Shown piece after piece: positions 1 to 42,400 of a DNA stretch of 42,400 nucleotides. Both the position numbers and the translations under genes were made by a program. The stretch's first letter is position 1. Each line of letters opens with the position of its first letter. The notes under the pieces were generated by a model. The model searched no databases, was not told the DNA's origin, and saw only the letters and a program-made list of their open reading frames with translations. The stretch covers positions 1 to 42,400 of the forward strand of contig JAVCCE010000048.1 of the NCBI GenBank assembly GCA_030765645.1, in the 5' to 3' direction. This stretch comes from Candidatus Hinthialibacter antarcticus. GTDB taxonomy: Bacteria > Hinthialibacterota > Hinthialibacteria > Hinthialibacterales > Hinthialibacteraceae.

Positions 1-126
1 AAAGCCCGCACTGAAGCGAGCAGAGTTGTACCCATGCCATACACAGCGAAAGATTAAGTATTGATGAAGAGGCTTCTATAAATCTCAATTCTATTTGTGA
101 AAAAGTATCCAAATACCGGATGAACC
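1..126 (+). mobile_element. Right part of MITE-like repeat element, cut by window start
   Basis: The window opens inside a repeat element. Bases 1-38 are the right end of the palindromic core (ending in GTTGTACCCATGCC) and 39-126 are its 3' tail, ending in TACCGGATGAACC. That end is the exact reverse complement of the left end GGTTCATCCGGTA of the complete element at 2656. The tail is nearly identical to the tail of the 2656-2918 copy, differing at only a handful of positions. The 8 bases after the end, 127-134, would be the target duplication, but the other side lies outside the window. Confidence 0.8.
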
Positions 127-155: not shown

Positions 156-2651
156 ATGAGAAATATCCAGTTCAATTGTGTATTGTATTTCGCGTTATTG
201 ATCTCCGCAGCAATCGCGGGTTATAACGTCCAGGCTCAACCCAGCGAAGCCACTGCGGTTGTCTCATCCACTCAAGTTTCAAGCGCAACCGTCGCCACAG
301 AAATTGACCCGAAAGTAAAAATTGAACAACTTCAGGGCAAGCGCAAATCCCTGCAAGAACAGATCGCCGCGAAACAAGCCGCCGCGAAAGAGGTTGGCGA
401 CGCCACCGCCGCCGCGCCCATCGTCCGCCAGGTTGAAATGCTTCAAACCATCGACCTGATCCAAGGCCAGAGAATCTCAGCCTATGAACAATGGATATCC
501 TTAAATGACCAGTTAAAGCAAGCAAAAGAAGAATTAGAAAAACTGAAAGAAACTCCCCAAGAAGGAGAATCTTCTTTTTTAGAATATAACCGCCTGCGAG
601 AACAATTAACGGTTGAAGAAGGCCGTAAAGACACCATCACCAATCGTATCGAGTTAGCGCAAAACTCTTTAAAGCAAGCGCAAAGCCAGTTGGAACAACG
701 CACAACGCAACTCGCGCAAATTCGGGCGAAATCAGAAAGCGCCGAAGAGGAAGCCGTCCGTATGCAACTGGCGTCGGACATGCTCGCATCCCAATACCAG
801 ATTCGCGCCGCCTCAGAAACGATCCAACTGCGAAAGATCGACCAGCACAATGAAGAATCCGGGCGCGAGGTCTATCAAGCCAAGTTGACGCTGCTGCAAG
901 AGCGCGTGAAGCGCATTGAACAGAATGTCGTCTTTTCTCAGGAAGACCTACAAGACCAAAAAAACCGCTTGGCCAAAGAAGAATTCACTCTCGGCCAGGA
1001 ACTCGACAAAGCACAAAAAGCCAAAACGAAAATCCAGGCGAAACTCGATAGCGCCAATCTGAGGCGAACCGCAGCGGCCGCTTCTACGCCCGCGCTGGAT
1101 GAAGAAGTCAACGCCAAGCAATTCGAGATAGATACGGTCAATATCCGAATTGAGAGCATCAACTCAAACCTGAAATGGATCCCGGTTCGGACATCGCTTT
1201 GGCAAAAGCGTTTTGACGTGTTTAACGAGACGGTGGAAGAAACCACCATGCTCGAATGGAAGCAGGAAATCAGCACCAACATCGAGACCCTGAACCAAAG
1301 CAGCCGCAGCATTGGATTTTCGCTGGAAGAAAAACAGTCGCGCATCACCACCATTCGAAATAGCCTCAGCAATTTGTCCACCGAAGCCAGCGACGCCAAA
1401 AAATGGCTCGAAGAACAAATTACCTTTCTCGATCAGTCGATTTCGCTCTATCGCGAGCGCCAAAGCCAGTTAGAGTCGGTGCGTCGGCTGCATAATAAAT
1501 TACTCGATGAAATCAACGAAAAAATTTCTCAGCAAACCTGGGATGAATACATCCACACGCTTCTTGAGAAGGAGTACTACCTAAATTCGGCCCGCGCATG
1601 GTTCTATGCGCTGACGGTTGGCTTCATCATTTTCATTATTTGCTACCTTATCCGTTGGGTCGTAACATGGCGGTTACGGCGATTGGCCAAAGACAGCAAA
1701 AGCGCGGTCACGCCCGTCGCCAGCGAAACCGTCAAGCGCATCAAACCGCTGTTCTTCCTAGTGCTCGCGGTGTATATCGCCTCCAAAATGCTGATCTTGT
1801 ATGAGGGCTACCCCACCTACATGAACAGGCTGTTTATCATCGCGCTGATTATGCAATGCGCGATCATCACCAGTTATTACTTAAAGCAATGGATTCTCAA
1901 ATATCTTCTGACGAAATCCAAACGCGACGAAACCAGCATGAGCGCTATGGCCATTTTCAATTTTATCGGCCAGCTATCGCTCTGGGCCATTACCCTCATT
2001 CTCGTTATACAAAACATGGGCTACGACGCCACCGGCCTGGTCACGGGTCTCGGCATTGGAGGTATTGCCATTGCGTTGGCGGTGCAGAAGGTGCTCGGAG
2101 ATTTGTTCGCCTCGCTTTCCATCGTACTCGATAAGCCCTTCGTCCACGGCGACTTCGTTATCTTTGACACCTTTCTCGGAAACATTGAACATATCGGCAT
2201 CAAATCGACCCGCATCCGCAGCCTGACCGGCGAGCAGATCGTCTGCTCCAACAGCGACCTGCTCAATGCCCGCATCCGTAACTTCAAACGCATGCACGAA
2301 CGCCGAATCGTGTTTGCGCTGGGCGTGACTTATCAAACATCAGCGGAGCAACTGGAAAAGATTCCCGGGTACATCCGCGAGATTGTTGAGTCAAAAGACA
2401 CAGTCCGCTTCGACCGCGCTCATTTTAAGGCGTACGGCGATTTTTCATTGAATTTTGAAACGGTCTATTATGTCCTTTCGCCCGACTACCCCGTTTATAT
2501 GGATATTCAACAAGACATCAACCTGAGGTTGTATCGTAAATTTGAGCAGGAAGGCATTGAGTTCGCCTATCCGACCCAAACCGTTTTTGTCGAAAAAGGC
2601 GACGGCGGCCCTGACGCCAATTGGCAGCCCCCGTCAGAACCAAGCCAATAA
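156..2651 (+). CDS. MscS-family mechanosensitive channel with long periplasmic coiled coil
   Basis: A pressure-gated inner-membrane channel of the large MscS/MscK-like type, expected to release solutes on osmotic downshock. From Met at 156 the product is 831 aa. A signal-like hydrophobic stretch at about residues 8-28 is followed by about 440 residues of Q/E/K-rich coiled coil. Four membrane segments follow (the first near residue 480). The conserved pore helix and beta domain contain GLGIGGIAIALAVQKVLGD and a DKPFVHGDFV stretch typical of MscS, and the end (YPTQTVFVE) is also typical. An in-frame ATG at 120 exists, but it lies in the inverted end of the upstream repeat element, and starting at 156 gives a cleaner signal sequence. 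The gene stands alone. Its terminator at 2932 is now separated from the stop codon by an inserted element. Family assignment is firm; which member is uncertain. Confidence 0.9.
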   Translation: MRNIQFNCVLYFALLISAAIAGYNVQAQPSEATAVVSSTQVSSATVATEIDPKVKIEQLQGKRKSLQEQIAAKQAAAKEVGDATAAAPIVRQVEMLQTIDLIQGQRISAYEQWISLNDQLKQAKEELEKLKETPQEGESSFLEYNRLREQLTVEEGRKDTITNRIELAQNSLKQAQSQLEQRTTQLAQIRAKSESAEEEAVRMQLASDMLASQYQIRAASETIQLRKIDQHNEESGREVYQAKLTLLQERVKRIEQNVVFSQEDLQDQKNRLAKEEFTLGQELDKAQKAKTKIQAKLDSANLRRTAAAASTPALDEEVNAKQFEIDTVNIRIESINSNLKWIPVRTSLWQKRFDVFNETVEETTMLEWKQEISTNIETLNQSSRSIGFSLEEKQSRITTIRNSLSNLSTEASDAKKWLEEQITFLDQSISLYRERQSQLESVRRLHNKLLDEINEKISQQTWDEYIHTLLEKEYYLNSARAWFYALTVGFIIFIICYLIRWVVTWRLRRLAKDSKSAVTPVASETVKRIKPLFFLVLAVYIASKMLILYEGYPTYMNRLFIIALIMQCAIITSYYLKQWILKYLLTKSKRDETSMSAMAIFNFIGQLSLWAITLILVIQNMGYDATGLVTGLGIGGIAIALAVQKVLGDLFASLSIVLDKPFVHGDFVIFDTFLGNIEHIGIKSTRIRSLTGEQIVCSNSDLLNARIRNFKRMHERRIVFALGVTYQTSAEQLEKIPGYIREIVESKDTVRFDRAHFKAYGDFSLNFETVYYVLSPDYPVYMDIQQDINLRLYRKFEQEGIEFAYPTQTVFVEKGDGGPDANWQPPSEPSQ

Positions 2652-2655
2652 TTAA

Positions 2656-2918
2656 GGTTCATCCGGTAAGTGAGTACTTGCATTGATGGATGGCCATAAT
2701 TTTGTTTAAGAAAACGTATTCGGGCATATTAAAAATTGACGAACCAATCAGGCATGGGTGCAACTCTGGGAGCGCCTGTGCATAAGGGCCTGAAAGCCCG
2801 CACTGAAGCGAGCAGAGTTGTACCCATGCCACACACAGCGAAAGATCAAGTATTGATGAAGAGGCTTCTATAAATCTCAATTCTATTTGTGAAAAAGCAT
2901 CCAAATACCGGAAGGACC
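2656..2918 (+). mobile_element. Complete 263-bp MITE-like element with 8-bp target duplication
   Basis: The left end is GGTTCATCCGGTA and the right end TACCGGAAGGACC, which match as inverted repeats at 11 of 13 positions. The element is bordered by the perfect 8-base direct repeat ATAATTAA at 2648-2655 and 2919-2926. The left copy of that repeat contains the TAA stop codon of the MscS gene (2649-2651). The palindromic core lies at 2751-2830: its arms GGCATGGGTGCAACTCTG and CAGAGTTGTACCCATGCC pair over 18 positions with one G-T. The element has no open frame that could be a transposase, so it is presumably mobilised in trans. Confidence 0.85.
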
Positions 2919-2931
2919 ATAATTAACGCTT

Positions 2932-9054: not shown

Positions 9055-9102
9055 GCCCCCCTTTTTAAGGGGGGGGACGGCGCTGAAAGCGCCAGGGGGG
9101 AT
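9055..9102. repeat. C-run/G-run double hairpin repeat
   Basis: CCCCCCTT-TTT-AAGGGGGG is followed by a second perfect hairpin GGCGCT-GAA-AGCGCC and then GGGGGGAT. This resembles a dispersed palindromic repeat class seen in many bacterial genomes. It lies about 40 bases after the hydrolase gene and could stop transcription, though there is no clean T tract. Confidence 0.55.
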
Positions 9103-9221
9103 TTCAAAACAGCACAATTAAAGCGATACGTTCAAACTTAGTTTCAAGGGCTGGCTTCATTTTATTCAGCCTTGGCTCGCCACCCCTTACGTCAATGACA
9201 TTGGAATTAGAGGGGGGGGGC

Positions 9222-9290
9222 GTCTCTGTGAGCGCCTGTGCAAAAGGGCTTGAAAGCCCGCACCGAAGCAAGCAGAGTTGTACCCATGCC
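9222..9290 (+). repeat. Core repeat, left arm degraded (first of a pair)
   Basis: From GAGCGCCTGTGC to GTTGTACCCATGCC at 9290 this matches the 80-base core of the MITE-like elements, but the left palindrome arm is lost in a G-run. It carries GAAGCAAG in place of the usual GAAGCGAG, a variant shared only with the partner at 9449. Confidence 0.75.
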
Positions 9291-9368
9291 AGCAATATTT
9301 TTGGTATTAAAGTGCAATGAATAATCCCGCCGCAAGCAGCAGGGTATCAAATCAAGTATTTAGAGTAG

Positions 9369-9528
9369 TTACCAGAAAACTATGCGGATTGAGTTTTCAT
9401 AACTGTATCTATCGCTGAGCCCCTGCCTGCGCGCTTACCGCACAGTAAGGCATGGGTGCAACTCTGAGAGCGCCTGTGCATAAGGGCCTGAAAGCCCGCA
9501 CCGAAGCAAGCAGAGTTGTACCCATGCC
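9369..9528 (+). repeat. Second core of the pair with conserved 80-bp spacer
   Basis: Bases 9369-9448 are a spacer homologous to 12446-12530 (shared GCGGATTGAGTTTTCAT, TATCTATCGCT and CGCACAGTAA). Bases 9449-9528 are a complete core with both palindrome arms. The same core-spacer-core order occurs at 12328-12610, so the pair behaves as a unit. Confidence 0.75.
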
Positions 9529-9593
9529 TTTCGCAACGAAAGTGCAAATTATTCTGAGATGGCTTCAAGTATTTAATGTGATGTGTTGAATAA

Positions 9594-12327: not shown

Positions 12328-12404
12328 GCGTGTGCAACTCTGGGAGCGCCTGTGCAATAGGGCCTGAAAGCCCGCACCGAAGCGAGCAGAGTTGTACCCA
12401 TGCC
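12328..12404 (+). repeat. Core repeat, left arm partial (first of second pair)
   Basis: Matches the 80-base core from GTGCAACTCTGGGAGCGCC to GTTGTACCCATGCC; the first bases of the left arm are changed (GCGCGTGTG in place of GGCATGGGTG). The tail after it (AACGAAAGACCAAGTATTTATGAG) is homologous to the tails of the complete elements. Confidence 0.75.
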
Positions 12405-12445: not shown

Positions 12446-12610
12446 AGTGGTTGCCAGAAACATGTGCGGATTGAGTTTTCATTACTGTATCTATCGCTAA
12501 GCCCCTACGGGCGCGCTTAACGCACAGTAAGGCATGGGTGCGACTCTGGGAGCGCCTGTGCAAAAGAGCCTGAAAGCCCGCACTGAAGCGAGCAGAGTTG
12601 TACCCAGGCC
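12446..12610 (+). repeat. Spacer plus second core of the second pair
   Basis: Bases 12446-12530 match the spacer at 9369-9448 and 12531-12610 form a full core. The final arm has one change (TACCCAGGCC). The tail to about 12690 again resembles the tails of the complete elements, ending near GTAACCGGTTTTCGG, a weak version of the inverted end. Confidence 0.75.
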
Positions 12611-12701
12611 GCAGCAACGAAAAACCAAGTATTTATGAGATGCCTTCTAGAAATCGCGATGCAATTGATGGAAAAGTAACCGGTTTTCGGAGCCCCCCCC
12701 C

Positions 12702-29141: not shown

Positions 29142-29216
29142 ATGTTTGCATTCGCATTTGTTACACTTGGTTTCGCCTGCGGTATGGGCTTAATCGTATA
29201 CGGAGTCATTAAGTAA
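29142..29216 (+). CDS. Very small hydrophobic protein (24 aa), function unknown
   Basis: A short frame beginning MFAFAFVTLGFACGMG and ending YGVIK. It is almost wholly hydrophobic, with one terminal lysine, so it would form a single membrane helix. GAGG/TGAGG motifs lie within 15 bases upstream of the ATG, and a near-consensus promoter lies at 29046-29073. The TAA stop is the last base triplet of the target duplication TTAAGTAA, and the MITE-like element begins at the very next base. It resembles the single-helix small proteins found beside cytochrome oxidases or in stress responses only in size. No homologue is recognised; it could be a chance frame. Confidence 0.5.
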   Translation: MFAFAFVTLGFACGMGLIVYGVIK

Positions 29217-29452
29217 GGTTCATCCGGCAAGTGAGTACCTACATTGATGGATGGACATGATTAGGTTAAAAAAACCTATTCCTGCATATCAAAAATTGAT
29301 AAACCAAATATAGGCATGGGTGCAACTCTGGGAGCGCCTGTGCATAAGGGCCTGAAAGCCCGCACTGAAGCGAGCAGAGTTGTACCCATGCCATACACAG
29401 CGAAATCTCAATTCAATTTATTAAAATTAAGTGTCCAATTTACGGAAAAACC
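29217..29452 (+). mobile_element. Complete 236-bp MITE-like element with 8-bp target duplication
   Basis: The left end is GGTTCATCCGGCAA; the right end is TTTACGGAAAAACC. The element is flanked by a perfect direct repeat TTAAGTAA (29209-29216 and 29453-29460). The palindromic core 29313-29392 is identical at all 80 positions to the core at 2751-2830, while the flanking segments have diverged considerably and the tail is shorter. Confidence 0.85.
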
Positions 29453-29487
29453 TTAAGTAACCCCTCCGATTCACCCCTTCTCGCTCA

Positions 29488-33623: not shown

Positions 33624-33774
33624 ACAAACCAATTCAGGCATGGGTGCAACTCGGGGAGCGCCTGTGCATAAGGGCCTGAAAGCCCGCACCGAAGCGAGCA
33701 GAGGTGTACCCATGCCACATGCAGCGAAATCTCAATTCAATATATAAAAAAAGTATCCAATTAACGGAAGAACC
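33624..33774 (+). mobile_element. 5'-truncated MITE-like element
   Basis: Contains a full core at 33637-33716 (arms altered at two positions) and the 3' tail ending TTAACGGAAGAACC at 33774. The first half of the element is missing; homology starts at CAAACCAATTCAGG. It ends 20 bases from the stop of the LVIVD-repeat gene. The tail is most like that of the 29217-29452 copy. Confidence 0.75.
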
Positions 33775-42249: not shown

Positions 42250-42400
42250 GGTTCATCCGGTAAGTGAGTACCTACCTTGATGAATGGCCATGATTTTTAT
42301 TCAGAAACAGGCTCCGGCATTTCACAAATTGACAAACCAATCAGGCATGGGTGGAACTCTGGGAGCGCCTGTGCATAAGGGCCTGAAAGCCCGCACTGAA
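42250..42400 (+). mobile_element. Left part of MITE-like element, cut by window end
   Basis: Begins with GGTTCATCCGGTAAGTGAGTA, identical over those positions to the complete copy at 2656. The core starts at 42344 and runs to the window end, differing from the 2751 core by one base. The 8 bases before it, AAATTTAT (42242-42249), should reappear at its right end. It sits 66 bases upstream of hypF. Confidence 0.8.

Follow-up and report, generated by a model that had tools for sequence, protein, structure and literature searches.

We found that the genome of Candidatus Hinthialibacter antarcticus carries a family of MITEs, well over a hundred copies of about 260 bases each, which is non-autonomous and is very probably mobilised in trans by a DDE transposase of the ISL3 family, encoded by an insertion sequence (IS) present in multiple copies in the same genome. 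The window, the whole 42,400-nucleotide stretch that was analysed, is the entire contig C48 of this 5.15-Mb, 78-contig genome, and the assembly broke inside MITE repeats at both of its ends.

A sequence-only reading of the window had described two complete copies with inverted, related ends and perfect 8-bp target duplications, at 2656–2918 and 29217–29452, together with partial copies ending at 126 and starting at 42250. All four were borne out. The first copy starts with GGTTCATCCGGTA and finishes with TACCGGAAGGACC, and ATAATTAA borders it on both sides; the second has TTAAGTAA on each side, and each partial copy is cut by a contig end. We found a further, left-truncated copy at 33634–33774 that was absent from that reading. 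The features of the MITE copies in the window are as follows.

2648–2655, no strand: left 8-bp target duplication ATAATTAA, by flank comparison.
2656–2918, plus strand: complete MITE copy of 263 bp with inverted ends and flanking duplications; copies 96–97% identical to it occur on contigs C45 and C21.
2656–2704, minus strand: 49 bp that take in the terminal inverted repeat and derive from the 3′ end of an ISL3-family transposase gene; ~45 of the 49 agree with the IS 3′ end at loci L091, L093 and L094.
2751–2830, plus strand: 80-nt hairpin core, common to elements without IS ends, from its fold and a match to RNA model R1 at 2749–2831.
2902–2918, plus strand: right terminal inverted repeat, ~17 bp matching the IS 5′ end, by comparison with the IS 5′ end on C66.
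2919–2926, no strand: right 8-bp target duplication ATAATTAA, by flank comparison.
29209–29216, no strand: left 8-bp target duplication TTAAGTAA, by flank comparison.
29217–29452, plus strand: complete MITE copy of the short subfamily, 236 bp, from its ends and flanks.
29313–29392, plus strand: hairpin core of the second complete copy, with an R1 match at 29311–29393.
29453–29460, no strand: right 8-bp target duplication TTAAGTAA, by flank comparison.
1–126, plus strand: right portion of a MITE copy interrupted by the contig start, by sequence comparison.
42250–42400, plus strand: left portion of a MITE copy interrupted by the contig end, by sequence comparison.
33634–33774, plus strand: truncated MITE with hairpin and right arm, its left end gone, by sequence comparison.

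Transposase coding capacity is absent from both complete copies, neither of which contains an ORF of at least 100 aa. The earlier statement that no transposase frame lies inside holds for the entire element; its left 49 bp, however, are the 3′ tail of the ISL3 transposase gene, read on the minus strand.

The family was then followed through the genome. The 21-nt left end, allowing up to 3 mismatches, gave 144 matches and the reversed control pattern gave 0. The flanks were tabulated, as the sequence-only reading had proposed for other copies, in an unbiased sample of 1.56 Mb of contigs from this genome, the window included, from which every complete copy was taken (n = 28, mostly 232–263 bp, range 191–321 bp). 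The eight bases on either side were identical in 11 copies (39%) and matched at seven of eight positions in 5 more, while pairing left and right flanks across different copies gave 0.66% at 8/8 and 1.85% at 7/8. Exact flank matches in these 28 copies stop at 8 bp and none is longer. When all other examined loci were added, perfect duplications were present in 20 of 49 copies against 0.30% in the control, and the A+T content of the perfect duplications in this 49-copy set was 91%. In 12 of the 28 sampled copies six or fewer flank bases match; we put these weak flanks down to age, deletion or tandem arrangement, the individual cases being unproven. The two MITEs of a tandem pair at C47:3226–3715 (L125) are separated by 8 bp, GAAATTAA, and the pair is bordered by the 8-bp duplication ACTTTTAT, as would be expected of a dimer that moved as a single unit.

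We also found empty sites. The MITE at C27:57176 sits within another dispersed repeat. When its two flanks are joined and one duplication is removed, the result is ~95% identical over 111–112 bases to members of that repeat at C70:22882–22993 and C63:74952–75062, which are unfilled and have the target site ACAGCACAAATAAAGCGATAC intact. These sites are paralogous, lie within the same genome and concern one MITE copy; they are direct evidence for insertion with an 8-bp duplication. The dispersed repeat itself, GGGGGGACGGCGCTGAAAGCGCC...TTCAAGGGCTGGCTTCATTTTATTCAGCC, also occurs at 9061–9174 of the window, and one of its copies is the MITE target. That these are ordinary intergenic repeats, never transposed, with flanks that match by chance is a reading that the AT-rich flanks might seem to favour, as they raise the rate of chance matches. 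However, the cross-paired control has the same composition and reached 0.7% perfect matches where 39% were observed, exact runs end at 8, empty sites exist and the parent IS is bordered by duplications of the same kind. We regard this reading as already refuted, with practically no chance of being correct. The earlier view of the family as a non-autonomous, transposed MITE is thus supported by its ends, by exact 8-bp AT-rich duplications and by empty sites within the genome.

The sequence-only reading had left the transposase unidentified and had suggested looking for a full IS with the same ends and a transposase gene. We found such an IS, of the ISL3 family, in the same genome. The transposase can now be named to family from PF01610 (ISL3 transposase) fragments, which lie mostly at contig edges; its proposed action in trans is still something that we infer. 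One fragment, starting RFLDQW and ending in IMAIHQCRYSFTG before the stop, matches PF01610 with E=3.3e-21. On C37, C30 and C77 the last codons of the gene (ending in KIMAIHQCRYSFTG and the stop) enter the terminal repeat GGTTCATCCGGTAAATGAGTA, read inwards. It is this 3′ end of the gene that the left 49 bp of the MITE match (~92% identity), so that they consist of the gene's last codons, and the right end of the MITE matches the IS 5′ end over ~17 bp. Thus the terminal inverted repeats are common to the MITE and to an IS that was read at both ends, its middle unassembled.

IS 5′ ends lie at the starts of C6, C66 and C68. The 8-bp duplications match across assembly gaps, with ATAAATCT for C66/C37 and ATAATTTT for C6/C30, while the 5′/3′ pair C68/C77 has no common duplication. 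Since the flanks pair across gaps, at least two full-length IS copies, read at their ends, probably interrupt the assembly across contig breaks. Many contig ends fall in MITE or IS copies, among them those of C7, C9, C24, C27, C30, C36, C37, C48, C66, C70 and C77. These repeats explain many of the contig breaks in the assembly, and the flanking 8-bp duplications at contig ends are usable for contig joining.

Relatives of the transposase are widespread. With the 84-aa fragment as query, named genomes yielded 279 relatives from Planctomycetota, Desulfobacterota, Bacteroidota and others; identity reached 70% in the best of them. Several of those in other phyla are complete elements, mostly 1.25–1.38 kb long. 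Their ends are of the GGTTCATCCG type and contain the stop codon of the transposase gene, and the 8-bp duplications that border them are perfect and AT-rich. One full-length relative carries PF01610, HTH_Tnp_ISL3 and Zn_ribbon_ISL3, and scores 332.9 bits against NF033550, for which the NCBIfam cut-off is 180. The ISL3 transposase would bind the ends common to IS and MITE (GGTTCATCCGGTA / TACCGGAAGAACC) and move the segment between them, and 8-bp staggered cuts at AT-rich sites would be repaired into the duplications.

Simple deletion within the IS does not account for the MITE. Between the IS-derived ends, its interior matches a separate dispersed repeat, here called type B, which has the same 80-nt hairpin within the inverted repeat GAAGCCATCTCAAAA...TTTTGAGATGGCTTC and has no ISL3 ends. 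Some MITEs (C77:10234, locus L089) retain the right terminus of type B, GAGATGGCTTCTA; the left one is gone. Most simply, the MITE would have arisen when a type-B copy became enclosed by IS ends, with loss of its left terminus and retention of the right one in some copies. Type B and related hairpins are also present in the window.

9447–9529, plus strand: type B hairpin without ISL3 ends, by R1 model and repeat comparison.
12529–12611, plus strand: type B hairpin without ISL3 ends, by R1 model and repeat comparison.
12332–12404, plus strand: type B related hairpin with a damaged left stem, by repeat comparison.
9216–9291, plus strand: related hairpin with a damaged left stem and no ISL3 ends, by repeat comparison.

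Type-B elements such as C66:129782–129967 and C63:63899–64087 are ~190 bp long with inverted ends GAAGCCATCTCAAAA, and some copies adjoin TA. Type B may be a further MITE family, with an IS partner of its own. An assignment to IS630-like elements with a TA duplication was considered, was only suggestive and was not adopted, few complete pairs being found.

The 80-nt core folds into a long stem with a structured tip. We found 119 matches to it in the 1.56 Mb, partial ones counted, in three settings: solo, in type-B elements and in MITEs. The solo copies lie between genes, mostly near stop codons. Their stems vary by locus yet remain paired (GGCATGGG/CCCATGCC, GGCTTGGG/CCCAAGCC, GGCGTGGG/CCCACGCC and GGCCTGGG/CCCAGGCC). 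Rfam gave no family over the window or over three hairpin-bearing stretches, and a hit of mir-5856 on the MITE (E=0.84) was set aside as a chance hairpin match.

We considered whether the hairpin is a selected RNA element, a 3′-end stabiliser or terminator, with the MITEs that carry it surviving because their insertion is harmless to neighbouring transcripts. Among 29 mainly solo and type-B copies, changes on both sides of a base pair were found in 30 cells against 11.8 after shuffling (0/500), a shuffle that leaves relatedness uncontrolled; template-switch correction of quasi-palindromes could mimic such covariation. Solo stems extend into locus-specific flanks by a mean of 3.2 pairs, compared with 0.9 in a cross-paired control. 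Counting every ORF of at least 100 aa as a gene, which is a heuristic, we found a stop codon no more than 36 nt before 11 of 17 solo copies, against 13% at random intergenic placement, and 8 of 17 lie between convergent genes, against 83 of 426. These observations favour a selected RNA. However, inside MITEs paired and unpaired positions change at equal rates (3.5% and 3.9%), and broken pairs far outnumber compensatory ones (52 to 5). The hairpin inside MITEs thus behaves as cargo. The solo copies have no consistent T-tract, for which reason an intrinsic terminator was rejected, and the RNA-element explanation as a whole seems to us unlikely.

Another explanation makes the hairpin, as a REP-like palindrome, the spreading unit, which entered several repeat families and for which the ISL3-ended elements are merely one landing site. 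Its occurrence in three settings and the clustering of solo copies just after stop codons would fit, as would the conservation among MITE copies, which is 93.5% in the hairpin core and 76–82% in the arms; gene conversion among several hundred copies would also account for this difference. The genome further contains three genes resembling REP-type tyrosine transposases (RAYTs), two of which pass the NCBIfam RAYT cut-off. The three have different palindromic repeats at their flanks, and one, which is frameshifted, is followed by two tandem hairpins.

L305:1435–2289 (contig C1): RAYT-like gene with a frameshift, lying between GGGGAGGGCGAACC...CTCGCCCTCCCC repeats, then two tandem 80-nt hairpins.

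The two intact RAYT genes, L303 (C74) and L304 (C42), each lie between copies of a palindromic repeat of their own, TCAAGGGCTG... and GTAGGGTGGGTTCTTAACCCACC respectively, and no hairpin was found near either. Against the hairpin as the moving unit, the sample held no MITE lacking the hairpin among the ends listed, hairpin orientation and position are constant in aligned MITE copies, and it is the ISL3 ends, not the hairpin, that the 8-bp duplications border. We consider this explanation quite improbable.

We hold to transposition through the ISL3 ends, and read the hairpin as most likely a REP-like palindromic repeat captured as cargo, a reading to which we give about even odds. A broader suggestion, which we offer tentatively and which may well not hold, is that the 80-nt hairpin is a portable module, repeatedly captured and amplified by unrelated transposon ends, so far in one lineage, with at least three vehicles: solo copies at gene 3′ ends, the GAAGCCATCTCAAAA-ended element and the ISL3-ended MITEs.

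Searches of 60 other genomes, 5 of which belong to the same family, and of plasmids and phages did not find the MITE. The hairpin model had no match in 14 other genomes, which included the same 5. The type-A hairpin pattern had no match in genome_contigs, nor a looser pattern in viral_contigs, collections that may leave out this genome. The MITE left end was found on one contig in viral_contigs, IMG/VR L306, which has phage head genes and host-like flanks and ends inside a MITE core (L306:1–149, 87% identical to the window copy). Since L306 is mostly without a match in this genome, it is no test of insertion polymorphism. It comes from metagenome 3300035698, a number also borne by a Candidatus Hatepunaea meridiana MAG (L238). 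The MITE family appears to be lineage-restricted, its partner IS belonging to a widespread family.

Taken together, this single uncultivated genome offers a clean case in which a MITE can be seen along with its partner IS, its target duplications and empty sites. The transposition is ordinary; the nested hairpin cargo is the less usual part. That the MITE interior is itself a dispersed hairpin repeat bears on the origin of MITE interiors.

The hairpin resembles REP repeats in being a high-copy extragenic palindrome close to stop codons in a genome with REP-type tyrosine transposases. Described REPs are 20–40 bp long (PMC3733652, PMC3116915) and have a GTAG or CGTC end tag (PMC3733652). In contrast, the hairpin is 80 nt long, has ends of the form GGCnTGGG/CCCAn′GCC and was not found on both sides of any of the RAYT-like genes. 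Because it lacks the GTAG or CGTC tag we do not file it as a REP, although it is like a REP-type palindrome. With the ISL3 family (PF01610, NF033550) the MITE and IS share GGTTCATCCGG... ends and 8-bp AT-rich duplications, and the IS has a transposase fragment matching PF01610, with the stop codon falling inside the terminal repeat, which is also the case for relatives in other phyla. The MITE differs from the family in having no transposase and in deriving from the IS only in its left 49 bp and right ~17 bp. Like bacterial MITEs generally, it is short, non-coding and high-copy, with the ends of an IS partner and target duplications. The similarity of MITEs to their partner IS outside the ends is usually low (PMC3852290); here, the interior is not unrecognisable sequence but can be identified as a second repeat family, one that carries a structured hairpin.
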